Positions 21,150 to 25,817 of a DNA stretch of 40,354 nucleotides are shown piece after piece (within the stretch, counting starts at the first letter, position 1; each line of letters opens with the position of its first letter). Position numbers and translations under genes: made by a program. The notes beneath the pieces were generated by a model. The model was not told the origin of the DNA. It did no database searches and saw only the letters and a program-made list of their open reading frames with translations. The stretch is taken from positions 1 to 40,354 of the forward strand of contig JAABQB010000025.1 in NCBI GenBank assembly GCA_011391695.1, in the 5' to 3' direction. This DNA comes from Desulfobacteraceae bacterium (GTDB lineage Bacteria > Desulfobacterota > Desulfobacteria > Desulfobacterales > RPRI01).

Positions 21150-21596
21150 ATGAGTTCAAACAAGGAGCTTAGACTGGCTTTGTATATGGCTGCTGTTCTG
21201 TTTGTTGTTGGGACTGTTTGTTATGCAGCCTTTCCGGCCAAAAAACATGAGCAGCCGGTCAGGATCATGTTCAAGACTCTTGCCGGGAAAGTCCTTTTCG
21301 ATCATAAAGCACATACTTCGGAAAAAGGCTACGCTCTTTCATGCCAAGATTGTCACCATCATCCCGAAGGTGATGATGCCTCTGCCAGTGCCTGCGGTGA
21401 ATGTCACATCAATTCGGAAGATAAAGCACCGGCTCCGGAAAAATGCCTTGAATGTCACGATTCCGGAGATTTTGAAGGCGTTGCTTTGACAAAAAAAACC
21501 GACGCATTTCACCAGCAGTGCGATAATTGTCATGAAAAAGCCGATGCCGGTCCCAGGGAAAAAGAGAAAAGATGCAACTGGTGTCATAATATGTAA
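21150..21596 (+). CDS. membrane-anchored or secreted pentaheme cytochrome c (class III-like)
   Basis: This 148-aa protein has five CxxCH heme c motifs, at residues 65-69, 82-86, 99-103, 124-128 and 142-146. The first 26 residues form a signal peptide or uncleaved anchor, so the hemes face the periplasm. Class III cytochromes (c3/c7) usually hold three or four hemes in about 110 aa, so five is above the norm. Scattered HH and FDHKAH residues can supply distal ligands. It is the first gene before rnfC (70-nt gap) on the same strand. This recalls Methanosarcina acetivorans, where the multiheme cytochrome MmcA is encoded with Rnf. It probably exchanges electrons with RnfG. Confidence 0.88.
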   Translation: MSSNKELRLALYMAAVLFVVGTVCYAAFPAKKHEQPVRIMFKTLAGKVLFDHKAHTSEKGYALSCQDCHHHPEGDDASASACGECHINSEDKAPAPEKCLECHDSGDFEGVALTKKTDAFHQQCDNCHEKADAGPREKEKRCNWCHNM

Positions 21597-21666: not shown

Positions 21667-22944
21667 ATGAAAAAACGACCATTCATATGCCTCAGCGAAC
21701 CACATCTTGAATATGACGCTATCGAACCGGGCTGCAAACTTAATGTCATTCCCGTACCGAAGAAAGCAGTTCTTTTTTTCGGTACGGCATATGACAAAAA
21801 AGGGGCTCCTTTATTTAAAGAAGGGGACAGGGTAAAAACAGGGCAGAAACTGATTCTTTATGCCGACTCGGAAGAGTATATTGTTTCCACAGTTACAGGC
21901 GCCATATCTTCTGTTTCTCCATACGCCGGGGATTTTGGGAAATCCTACACATCTGTTCAGATTGACGTTGCTGAAGATGAAACCGATGATGCTTTCGAAA
22001 AGGTATCCGGGGACCTGAGCATTGATAACGTCAGGAACTATCTTTCATCCCTGCCCGGCAACCTGCCCGTAAAATCCTTTTCAGATCCGGACAATAAAAT
22101 TGACACAATAGTTATTGCCGGTGTTGATTCTGATTTGCAGGTTATAACCAGTCAGTATATTGTCAGCTCAAAAATGGAGCATATAATAAAAGGTATAAAA
22201 ATATTGAAATTGATCCCCGGAATCAACAATATAGTTCTTGCGGCAAGAAGAGATTCGCTTCAGGGGTATGGACATATCGGGGCAGAAGTAAAAAATATCG
22301 GCACAAGATATCCCTCGGCTTTCAGGCAGCTTGTTATAAAAGAATCTCTCGGAAAGATACTTCCGGCAGGGAAAAAGCCCGAAGATATCGGGGTCTGTGT
22401 TATTAATGCGGAAGCGGTTGCGTCTTTAGGAAGCGCTTTCCTGCATAACAGAATTCCCACGGATAAAATTATCACATTAATAAATAAAGACGGGACTAAA
22501 AAACTGGTTTCAGCAAGAATGGGAACTCCCCTGGGCGATATTCTCAAAGCCTTCAACATTACCTTAAATCATGGGGACCGCTTGATTCTCGGAGGGCCTA
22601 TGGCCGGTTCTCCCGTATATTCGGAAGATTATCCGGTTCTGTCTGATACCGATGCAATAATGGTTCAGGATAAAAATCAGATACAACCGGTTTCAGATTA
22701 CCCGTGCATAAACTGCGGTGACTGTATAAGAGTATGTCCGGTCAATATTCCCGTGAATATGCTTGTAAGATACCTCGAAGCAAGAATGTACCCTCAGGCC
22801 GCAGAGGAATATGATCTTTATTCCTGCATAGAATGCGGCCTTTGCAGTTATGTTTGCGTATCTAGGATGCCGATATCACAATATATCAGGCTTGCCAAAT
22901 ACGAACTTGCCGAAATAAACAGAGCGGAGGCGGCAAATGCCTAA
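21667..22944 (+). CDS. rnfC: RnfC-like subunit with degenerate NADH/flavin-binding region
   Basis: RnfC is the peripheral cytoplasmic subunit that normally reacts with NAD(H). Here (425 aa) the two ferredoxin-type [4Fe-4S] motifs are intact: cysteines 347/350/353/357 and 387/390/393/397. The RYPSAFRQL segment (214-222) and ILGGPMAGS (308-315) also align with RnfC. The glycine-rich loop (GLGGAGFPT in E. coli RsxC) is replaced by SSLPGNLPV (127-135), and the following ECEPY motif by DSDLQ (154-158). The N-terminal GGIHP motif is also missing. The start at 21667 is chosen because it begins the conserved region; an in-frame ATG at 21532 lies inside the cytochrome gene. It overlaps rnfD by 8 nt. 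Confidence 0.85.
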   Translation: MKKRPFICLSEPHLEYDAIEPGCKLNVIPVPKKAVLFFGTAYDKKGAPLFKEGDRVKTGQKLILYADSEEYIVSTVTGAISSVSPYAGDFGKSYTSVQIDVAEDETDDAFEKVSGDLSIDNVRNYLSSLPGNLPVKSFSDPDNKIDTIVIAGVDSDLQVITSQYIVSSKMEHIIKGIKILKLIPGINNIVLAARRDSLQGYGHIGAEVKNIGTRYPSAFRQLVIKESLGKILPAGKKPEDIGVCVINAEAVASLGSAFLHNRIPTDKIITLINKDGTKKLVSARMGTPLGDILKAFNITLNHGDRLILGGPMAGSPVYSEDYPVLSDTDAIMVQDKNQIQPVSDYPCINCGDCIRVCPVNIPVNMLVRYLEARMYPQAAEEYDLYSCIECGLCSYVCVSRMPISQYIRLAKYELAEINRAEAANA

Positions 22945-23905
22945 TCAGAAAAAATTAATTGTTTCTCATGCACCTTACTGCCATGACGGGAGCAATATTT
23001 CAACCCGTAGCAATAACATCATGCTTGCGGCGCTTCCCGCCGTTCTACATGGTTGTTACTTATATGGGCTGCCTGCTGTCGGGGTCGTTGCTCTTTCCAT
23101 TTCAACTGCAATAATCTGGGAATACCTGATAAACCTCCTGACCAAACGGCCGTCAACAATCGGAGATGGAAATGCGGCGGTGATCGGGATGATGACGGCG
23201 ATGCTTTTTCCTGCAACAACCCCATGGTGGGCGGTCATCACAGGAACATTTGTTGCGATCGTTGTTGGAAAGCAGATATATGGCGGGATCGGCGGAAACC
23301 CCTTCAATCCTGCCTTGATAGGAATTGCTATCCTGATGCTGTCATGGAAAAATATCTTTGATATTGATTATGCTTTATTAAATTATGATTTTAATTTTCC
23401 TGCGGCATATCCGCTTGTCGCTCTGAAGCATTATGGTGCGTCCTCTGTCGAGTCATTCAGTCTTACAGACCTTTTAATGGGAAACCAGACCGGCAGCATA
23501 GGCTCGGCATTCGGGCTTGCCCTTGCTCTCGGCGGATTATATCTCATAATCAGGGGATTTATACGGTGGGAAATATCCTTTTCGTTTCTTGCCGCCCTTA
23601 TAATCACCTCTCTGCTTTTTCAACTTTATGCCCCCGGCAAGTATGCCGGTCCTTTATTCCATCTTTTAACAGGCAACACCCTTCTGGGAGCTTTTTTTCT
23701 TGCTACCGAAGATTCATCGTCTCCTGTCAACTTTATTCCCATGTTAATATACGGGGCCGGCACGGGATTGATGGTTATGCTGATAAGAAATATCGGCGGT
23801 CATGCCGATGGAGTGGTTTTTGCGATTCTTCTGATGAATCTCACGAATCCTCTCATAGACAAGATAAGGCCAAAAGCCATGGGAAAGGTCAACAGCCATG
23901 CGTGA
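22937..23905 (+). CDS. rnfD: RnfD-like membrane subunit lacking the flavinylated threonine
   Basis: RnfD is an integral membrane subunit that usually carries covalent FMN on a threonine in a (S/T)xATPL motif. The 322-aa protein is polytopic and has RnfD blocks KQIYGGIGGNPFNPALIG (112-129), LGAFFLATED (250-259), IRNIGGHADGVVFAILLMN (283-301) and PLIDKIRP. At the motif position, just before LTDLLMGNQTGSIG, it reads FPAAYPLVALK (154-164), with Tyr158 where the FMN-bearing threonine is expected. It overlaps rnfC and rnfG by 8 nt each, so the subunits are translationally coupled. Confidence 0.87.
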   Translation: MPNQKKLIVSHAPYCHDGSNISTRSNNIMLAALPAVLHGCYLYGLPAVGVVALSISTAIIWEYLINLLTKRPSTIGDGNAAVIGMMTAMLFPATTPWWAVITGTFVAIVVGKQIYGGIGGNPFNPALIGIAILMLSWKNIFDIDYALLNYDFNFPAAYPLVALKHYGASSVESFSLTDLLMGNQTGSIGSAFGLALALGGLYLIIRGFIRWEISFSFLAALIITSLLFQLYAPGKYAGPLFHLLTGNTLLGAFFLATEDSSSPVNFIPMLIYGAGTGLMVMLIRNIGGHADGVVFAILLMNLTNPLIDKIRPKAMGKVNSHA

Positions 23906-24488
23906 AATGCTTAAAATGATAATAGTCCTGACCGTCTTATGCTCTTTTTCGGGCGGACTCCTTGCTGCGCTCCGGAATGAAACAATGGAAAAAATTGAAA
24001 ACCAGCAACTTGAGTTTGTCAAAGGGCCGGCAATCCGCAATATTTTAAAAGGATCATCAAATGATCCGATTGCCGACCGCTTCAAAATCAAAGTCGGAGA
24101 AACCGAAAAAAGTTTCTTTGTGGGAAAATTCGACGGAAAAGCGGAAACCGTTGTCTTTGAATCCACAGGAAAGGGTTTTGGCGGAGATTTTGGCATTATG
24201 CTTGGTGTCAATGTTGCAGACGACAAGATCATTGGCATAGGTGTTACCACTCACAGTGAAACACCCGGGATCGGCTCAAGAGCCCAGACAGACCCTCGTT
24301 TCGCAGCTCAATTCAAAGGTCTTCCCCTTGCGGGCGATTTCAAGGTCAAAAGTGAGGGTGGGCAGGTCGATGCCATTTCAGGCGCTACAGTCACCTCAAA
24401 GGGTGTCGCAGGCGCTGTTACTGATGCTGTAAAAACTTACGTAAGCCTGAAACCACAGCTTGCAGAAAAATTGAAGGGATTCAAATAG
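23898..24488 (+). CDS. rnfG: RnfG, periplasmic covalent-FMN subunit
   Basis: RnfG is anchored by one N-terminal helix (here about residues 7-25) and exposes an FMN-binding domain to the periplasm. The 196-aa protein has the FMN-transferase target DAISGATVTS at 158-167, so FMN should be attached to Thr164 by ApbE, which is not encoded in this window. THSETPGIG (118-126) is another family block. It overlaps rnfD by 8 nt and precedes rnfE by 11 nt. With the upstream cytochrome it would form the periplasmic electron-transfer arm. Confidence 0.92.
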   Translation: MREMLKMIIVLTVLCSFSGGLLAALRNETMEKIENQQLEFVKGPAIRNILKGSSNDPIADRFKIKVGETEKSFFVGKFDGKAETVVFESTGKGFGGDFGIMLGVNVADDKIIGIGVTTHSETPGIGSRAQTDPRFAAQFKGLPLAGDFKVKSEGGQVDAISGATVTSKGVAGAVTDAVKTYVSLKPQLAEKLKGFK

Positions 24489-24499
24489 GGAGAAACTTA

Positions 24500-25096
24500 A
24501 TGGCAAAGACCTTAACTCAGGAATTTACAAAAGGATTGTGGGCTGAAATTCCGCCATTCCGGCTTGTGCTCGGCTTATGCCCGATACTTGCAGTTACAAA
24601 ATCGGTTGAGAATGCAATTGGCATGGGCGCTGCCGTTGTTTTTGTTCTTGTAGGCTCAAATGTCCTGGTTTCATTGCTGCGAAAAATTATCCCTTCAAAG
24701 GTAAGGATTGCGTGTTTCATAATTGTTGTTGCGACTTTTGTAACGGTTGTAGAGCTTCTCATGCAGGCCTACACTTACCCGCTCTTTCTGAAACTTGGAA
24801 TATTCATACCTCTCATCGTTGTTAACTGCATTCCGCTCGGCCGAGCCGAAGCGTTTGCATACAAGAATGGAATAATACCTTCCTTTGCGGACGGTCTCGG
24901 CCTTGGAATAGGATATGCGATGTCTTTAACTGCTCTTGGAGCTATCCGGGAGGTTTTCGGAAGCGGAACTTTTTATGGAAACCAGGTTTTCGGGCCTTCT
25001 TTTCAACCTTTTAATTTCATGATAGAAGCGCCCGGCGCATTCGTGTGCTTAGGGCTCATGCTTTGCGTAATGAATTTCGTAGGGAAGAAAGCATGA
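24500..25096 (+). CDS. rnfE: RnfE, membrane subunit with Fe-S cysteine pair
   Basis: RnfE and RnfA are homologous six-helix proteins inserted in opposite orientation. Together they bind an intramembrane [2Fe-2S] cluster. The 198-aa protein keeps both cysteine motifs: LGLCPILAVT (Cys27) and VNCIPLGRAEAFA (Cys110). It follows rnfG by 11 nt with a GGGAGAAA ribosome binding site. A 145-nt gap with heptad repeats separates it from rnfA, which is unusual because these two genes are normally adjacent. Confidence 0.93.
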   Translation: MAKTLTQEFTKGLWAEIPPFRLVLGLCPILAVTKSVENAIGMGAAVVFVLVGSNVLVSLLRKIIPSKVRIACFIIVVATFVTVVELLMQAYTYPLFLKLGIFIPLIVVNCIPLGRAEAFAYKNGIIPSFADGLGLGIGYAMSLTALGAIREVFGSGTFYGNQVFGPSFQPFNFMIEAPGAFVCLGLMLCVMNFVGKKA

Positions 25097-25177: not shown

Positions 25178-25226
25178 CGATATTCGATGTACGATGTACG
25201 ATATTCGATGTACGATGTACGATTCA
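25178..25226. repeat. seven CGATNNN units between rnfE and rnfA
   Basis: The units CGATATT, CGATGTA, CGATGTA, CGATATT, CGATGTA, CGATGTA and CGATTCA follow one another at an exact 7-bp period. The array sits just upstream of the rnfA ribosome binding site (TAGGAGAC). Confidence 0.9.
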
Positions 25227-25241
25227 TAAATAGGAGACATT

Positions 25242-25817
25242 ATGGGTGACTATGTTCTGCTTGCCATAAGCTGTGTACTTATAAACAATATATTGCTGAT
25301 GCAATACCTCGGAAATTGCCCTTTCCTTGGAACATCAAAGAAAATGGAGACGGCTGTCGGAATGGCAATGGCCGTTATTTTTGTTCTCGTCCTTGCCGGC
25401 GCCATCACATGGCTGACCGAGATGTTTATTTTAAAAAAATTCGGGCTTGAGTACTTAAGGACAATGTCTTTCATACTCGTTATTGCAGCCCTTGTTCAGT
25501 TCGTGGAAATGTTTTTAAAGAAAAGCATTCCTGCCCTTTATGCGGGACTTGGCATCTTTCTTCCTCTTATTACAACAAACTGCGCAGTTCTGGGAGTATG
25601 CCTGATAAATATAAAGGAAGAATACACCTTCATCGAATGCCTTGTATCTTCTTTTTCCTATTCTGCAGGATTCGGCCTTGCGCTGATACTTTTTGCGGGG
25701 GTACGTGAGCGGATATTGCTTGCAAGAATTCCGAAACCGCTTCAGGATACATCAATAGGGCTTGTCACTGCCGGGCTTCTTTCTCTGGCATTTTTTGCTT
25801 TCAAAGGCATGGCTTGA
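25242..25817 (+). CDS. rnfA: RnfA, membrane subunit with Fe-S cysteine pair
   Basis: RnfA is the partner of RnfE in the membrane core. The 191-aa protein has six predicted helices and both cluster motifs: LGNCPFLGTSKKMETAVGM (Cys26) and TTNCAVLGVCL (Cys114). AGGAG lies 7 nt before the ATG. In most bacteria rnfB follows rnfA or precedes rnfC; here the next gene is rluD on the opposite strand, so this is the last Rnf gene of the locus. Confidence 0.93.
   Translation: MGDYVLLAISCVLINNILLMQYLGNCPFLGTSKKMETAVGMAMAVIFVLVLAGAITWLTEMFILKKFGLEYLRTMSFILVIAALVQFVEMFLKKSIPALYAGLGIFLPLITTNCAVLGVCLINIKEEYTFIECLVSSFSYSAGFGLALILFAGVRERILLARIPKPLQDTSIGLVTAGLLSLAFFAFKGMA

Follow-up and report, generated by a model that had tools for sequence, protein, structure and literature searches.

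The rnf operon in the 40,354-base stretch of DNA analysed here (the window, contig C34 of a 2.8-Mb genome that is 98% complete) probably encodes a cytochrome-linked Rnf pump, the cytoplasm-bound return arm of which has been stripped of its flavins. The genes follow one another on the forward strand in the order cytochrome c, rnfC, rnfD, rnfG, rnfE, rnfA. The first (21150–21596) encodes a multihaem cytochrome c with five CxxCH motifs and an N-terminal export signal or anchor, which scores 38 bits against the NCBIfam TmcA-like profile (below the cut-off) and 30.2 bits against Pfam Cytochrome_C7, and which occupies the orthologous position in the operons of relatives. It is followed by RnfC (21667–22944, 425 aa), RnfD (22937–23905, 322 aa; TIGR01946, 248 bits), RnfG of the DVU2794 type (23898–24488, 196 aa; NF045876, 254 bits, cut-off 205), RnfE (24500–25096) and RnfA (25242–25817), the last two each retaining, according to profiles and alignments, the cysteine pair of the [2Fe-2S] site in the membrane. 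RnfD, RnfG, RnfE and RnfA all pass the cut-offs of their own profiles, and only RnfC misses its own. No rnfB follows rnfA in the window operon; the next gene in the 3' direction is an rluD-like gene on the opposite strand. The gap between rnfE and rnfA, short in relatives, contains a tandem repeat in the window (25178–25223; 2.2 copies of a 21-base unit).

Loss of the FMN and NAD motifs in RnfC

The first-pass annotation had proposed that RnfC lost two motifs known from E. coli RsxC, and translation from position 21667 bears this out: SSLPGNLPV (residues 127–135; 22045–22071, forward strand) is found where RsxC has its glycine-rich FMN loop GLGGAGFPT, and AGVDSDLQVI (residues 151–160; 22117–22146, forward strand) where RsxC has NAAECEPYIT. 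The E. coli motifs quoted there are correct, as rsxC of MG1655 has GLGGAGFPT and INAAECEPYITADD (NAAECEPYIT). Both the KIDTIVI segment and the C-terminal Fe-S region, said to align still, are in register in a MAFFT alignment with about 35 relatives, as they are when aligned by profile to solved RnfC (chains 8ahx, 7zc6 and 9eri), which rules out misalignment as the cause. The Fe-S region comprises two CxxCxxCxxxC 4Fe-4S motifs, C347–C357 (22705–22737) and C387–C397 (22825–22857), both on the forward strand and invariant in the orthologue alignment; the eight cysteines counted earlier are those of the two motifs, but the total for the protein is 11.

The window RnfC lacks the canonical signature (GxGGx[GAT]FP, ECEP) and scores 198.9 bits against TIGR01945 (cut-off 245.95), although Pfam Complex1_51K still matches it with 38.7 bits despite the lost motifs. 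It also stays below threshold against the archaeal RnfC equivalog NF041837 (125 bits, cut-off 650) and against the nqrA profile TIGR01936 (41 bits, cut-off 321). An AlphaFold model built from 49 sequences (pLDDT 86.9) exhibits the RnfC fold, with structural matches to RnfC chains (Z about 32–34), NqrA (25–28) and NuoF (about 15–17). The modelled protein has thus kept the RnfC fold and lost the motifs, in agreement with the earlier claim of a loss within an otherwise conserved protein.

The same change is found in relatives. A search of 40 of them identified orthologues of the window type in most (35–88% identity), all without both motifs and encoded behind a cytochrome of four to seven haems; many of the same relatives carry a second RnfC (26–33% identity), in most cases with both motifs and with no cytochrome. 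Both motifs are gone and both cysteine motifs kept in 80/80 orthologues from named genomes, which are Desulfobacterales or Deltaproteobacteria/Proteobacteria records, including Desulfonema magnum. One genome (G024) has two motif-less operons, one of which (L068) encodes a ten-haem cytochrome and an RnfC of 382 aa. Another altered type of RnfC, with the glycine-rich loop gone and ECEP replaced by EFEP or EFEF, occurs in loci L282, L285, L289 and L291, which keep the FMN threonine of RnfD and have no adjacent cytochrome; together with L296 they make up five exceptions with changed RnfC motifs and intact RnfD.

A genome search found no canonical RnfC elsewhere in the window genome that could serve as a backup, the other matches to the RnfC family being NuoF-type proteins, one NqrA and ferredoxin-like stretches. 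The NqrA (L081:9961–11298, minus strand, contig C52) belongs to an NQR cluster, scores above the NF003761 cut-off and still has, at its C-terminus, a domain containing two CxxCxxCxxxC motifs. Solved NqrA structures contain no cofactors, and the contig C52 protein is possibly an evolutionary intermediate between RnfC and NqrA.

Co-loss of the RnfD flavin site and its evolution

In the structure from C. tetanomorphum, FMN is attached to Thr153 of RnfD and lined by Arg130, Glu185, Ser284 and Gly237 (PMC9588780). The window RnfD has lost the FMN-bearing threonine: alignment places Tyr158 (codon 23408–23410, forward strand) at the position of Thr153 of 7ZC6. Rnf clusters were compared in a phylum-wide sample (395 genomes searched, 100 loci taken and added to the earlier ones). 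Thr153, Arg130 and Glu185 are each present in 74/74 clusters with intact RnfC motifs. In the motif-less clade (130 clusters), the Thr153 position is occupied by Tyr in 95 and otherwise mostly by Pro, Glu, Phe, Ser or Ala; two members show ETPL or ETLL there, with the rest of the motif gone. Instead of Arg130 these clusters have Ile, Leu, Val, Trp, Tyr or Met (Arg is not among the commonest residues), Glu185 is left in 4/130 and Gly237 has become Tyr in 92. An acid is found at the position of Asp248, on the riboflavin/Na+ side, in 130/130 clusters; Asn124 is mostly kept. The sites preceding RnfD in the electron path are also retained: the SGAT flavinylation motif of RnfG is present in the window (24378–24389, forward strand) and its Thr in 125/128 clusters of the clade, and the cysteines of RnfA and RnfE are kept throughout. 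Judged from these alignments, the flavin sites of both RnfD and RnfC are absent in the motif-less clade, and the flavin cofactors themselves are likely to be missing from the return arm, which leads from RnfG through FMN-RnfD and FMN-RnfC to NAD+. In the openly available literature consulted, neither the RnfD loss nor how far it reaches was found described.

A tree of 137 rows was calculated from RnfE and RnfA, independently of RnfC and RnfD. It groups all co-loss clusters (60 rows) together with full support, as a large and old branch of bacterial Rnf, and over all 137 rows requires 3 changes for each of the two traits. The co-loss of the RnfC and RnfD sites thus represents about one evolutionary event, the idea of independent events in individual clusters is rejected and, because the co-loss clusters form one clade, cluster counts are not independent observations. 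Of the clusters with both losses, 115/128 have a neighbouring multihaem cytochrome gene, compared with 0/72 of the canonical clusters, in a sample biased to relatives of the window (80 loci were found using its RnfC). Basal members of the clade have no adjacent cytochrome, so that such a gene is not a strict rule for the clade, and their position suggests that the flavin losses preceded the recruitment of the cytochrome. Also in the clade are operons that encode a ten-haem cytochrome, a small RnfB and an RnfG matching the NCBIfam DVU2794 family; their gene order, matching that described in PMC4841214, points to Desulfovibrio-like operons.

Proposed electron route and competing explanations

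The canonical series of cofactors comprises ferredoxin, RnfB, the [2Fe-2S] site of RnfA/E, the FMN of RnfG in the periplasm, FMN and then riboflavin in RnfD, and two 4Fe-4S clusters and FMN in RnfC. In characterised Rnf, electrons follow a U-shaped path through RnfB, RnfA/E, RnfG, RnfD and RnfC to NAD+ (PMC11889175, PMC9588780). As the path appears intact up to the FMN of RnfG and the later flavin sites are missing, exit at RnfG is the simplest reading. RnfB would take up electrons from ferredoxin or NAD(P)H; these would then cross RnfA/E and reduce the FMN of RnfG outside, and RnfG would pass them to a cytochrome c in the periplasm, probably the product of the five-haem gene upstream. Ion pumping at RnfA/E and RnfG could still operate, with RnfC and RnfD remaining as structural and ion-path parts, and the site for NAD(P)H may have shifted to RnfB on the input side, similar to the arrangement in NQR. 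From the sequences, this route, with a cytochrome as the acceptor, is the most likely one. The single ApbE copy of the window genome and its lack of a canonical RnfC count in favour of a cytochrome-linked pump, as does the failure of vesicle assays for ferredoxin:NAD+ activity in D. alaskensis (PMC4841214).

Other observations speak against parts of this proposal. In D. alaskensis, the decahaem gene dhcA of the operon has almost no fitness effect, yet rnf is essential on several donors (PMC4215793), which argues against a role of the adjacent cytochrome; another periplasmic cytochrome could be the acceptor instead. The basal members without an adjacent cytochrome also speak against a cytochrome-linked pump, and the supporting counts are weakened by the single origin of the co-loss. 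A dead arm, moreover, need not keep the eight Fe-S cysteines of RnfC and the acid of RnfD. This conservation is in line with an alternative, unlikely in our opinion, which turns on the RnfC Fe-S clusters and the RnfD riboflavin. The mostly retained Asn124 and the contact between RnfC and RnfB in solved structures (PMC9588780) also agree with it, and PMC5109826 likewise calls for a further partner. However, no carrier is known that could link RnfG to the riboflavin once FMN-RnfD is absent, and the distance between the RnfB and RnfC clusters in A. woodii exceeds 30 Å (PMC11889175).

It is more doubtful still that RnfC binds FMN and NAD(H) via a rebuilt pocket and that the complex remains a ferredoxin:NAD+ oxidoreductase. 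The retained fold of the AlphaFold model would be compatible with such a pocket, as would the conservation of the new positions among Desulfobacterales orthologues (among them P130, G131, D156 and the AEAVAS segment), but nearly all positions of both motifs are altered in the clade, and the preceding carrier, FMN-RnfD, lacks its threonine and the surrounding residues in the same clade. A decayed or mis-sequenced rnfC can be dismissed, and the first-pass annotation had already argued against a pseudogene: although the segment 125–165 evolves faster than the remaining protein (dN/dS up to 0.46), the same change in 80/80 relatives, the intact operon and an overall dN/dS of 0.16–0.23 against near relatives, which demonstrates purifying selection on rnfC, all speak against decay or error.

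With the exit at RnfG, a generalization can be proposed, which we favour by a small degree: a widespread clade in sulfate reducers and their relatives, including the Desulfovibrio-like operons, may represent a one-way Rnf that releases electrons at RnfG into the periplasm and carries any NAD(P) site on RnfB. The prediction depends on few residues. If it is true, the label of ferredoxin:NAD+ oxidoreductase would be wrong for complexes of this clade, and both the failed vesicle assay and the frequent cytochrome gene before rnfC would be explained. In sulfate reducers, Rnf is regarded as the site at which ferredoxin is coupled to NAD+, an assumption on which metabolic models of Desulfovibrio and of syntrophic sulfate reducers rely. 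Should NAD+ be out of reach for the clade, a new picture would be needed of how ferredoxin in the cytoplasm connects to the cytochrome pool of the periplasm.

Relationship to known systems and the large RnfB

The closest known counterpart is the Tol2-type Rnf. According to PMC5109826, which cites the D. toluolica Tol2 genome paper, RnfC of Desulfobacula toluolica and Desulfococcus multivorans is without the NADH-oxidoreductase domain, and the clusters of these species (Rnf2 in D. multivorans) encode an RnfB of about 700 aa with NAD-binding sites and a cytochrome. All three features recur in the window genome (RnfC without the NADH/FMN motifs, an RnfB of 694 aa with an NAD-binding domain, a cytochrome gene in the cluster), but its rnfB is not linked to the operon. 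The RnfC loss is therefore a further case of an already published type; what is added here is that, in the same clade, the sequence of RnfD has also lost the FMN threonine and the other residues lining the flavin, together with the spread of this loss.

Desulfovibrio DhcA-RnfCDGEABF (PMC4841214, PMC4215793) shares the upstream cytochrome and the NF045876-type RnfG, and Desulfovibrio-like loci share both the RnfC and the RnfD losses, but they differ in having ten haems and a small RnfB; this Rnf is still called a ferredoxin:NAD+ or ferredoxin:NADH oxidoreductase (PMC4287179, PMC4215793). In the Rnf-MmcA system of Methanosarcina acetivorans (PMC4023990), a multihaem cytochrome c gene likewise precedes rnfC, no NAD(P) is reduced and electron transfer has been modelled from RnfG to cytochrome c, as proposed here; it differs in being archaeal, in its methanophenazine acceptor and in the extra MA0665. 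In Na+-NQR, NqrA corresponds to an RnfC that lost FMN, and NAD(P)H enters on the RnfB-equivalent side. Na+-NQR, however, still has FMN in NqrB and passes its electrons to quinone, whereas the window RnfC keeps its 4Fe-4S motifs (all eight cysteines) and RnfD has lost the FMN threonine; with the low TIGR01936 score, this places the window complex outside the Na+-NQR family.

RnfB is mostly about 260–390 aa long in canonical clusters, and in most relatives of the window an RnfB of 690–725 aa is encoded directly after rnfA. In the window genus, rnfB lies outside the rnf operon, and two large RnfB proteins are encoded elsewhere in the genome. One of them (694 aa; L080:5593–7677, minus strand, contig C26) is encoded alone, unlike in most relatives; its N-terminus is of the RnfB type and is joined to a FAD and NAD(P) domain resembling NfnA/GltD (Fer4_20, Pyr_redox_2), with 9bov, 9n5u and 5jca as the best solved relatives. 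This domain architecture is consistent with use of the NAD(P) domain as an input to Rnf. The second large RnfB-like protein (L079:8179–13266, plus strand, contig C53) exhibits a degenerate FAD loop, GGGAEGLS, and is encoded after NuoE-like and NuoF-like genes; this locus possibly encodes a membrane-anchored NfnABC-like bifurcating complex.
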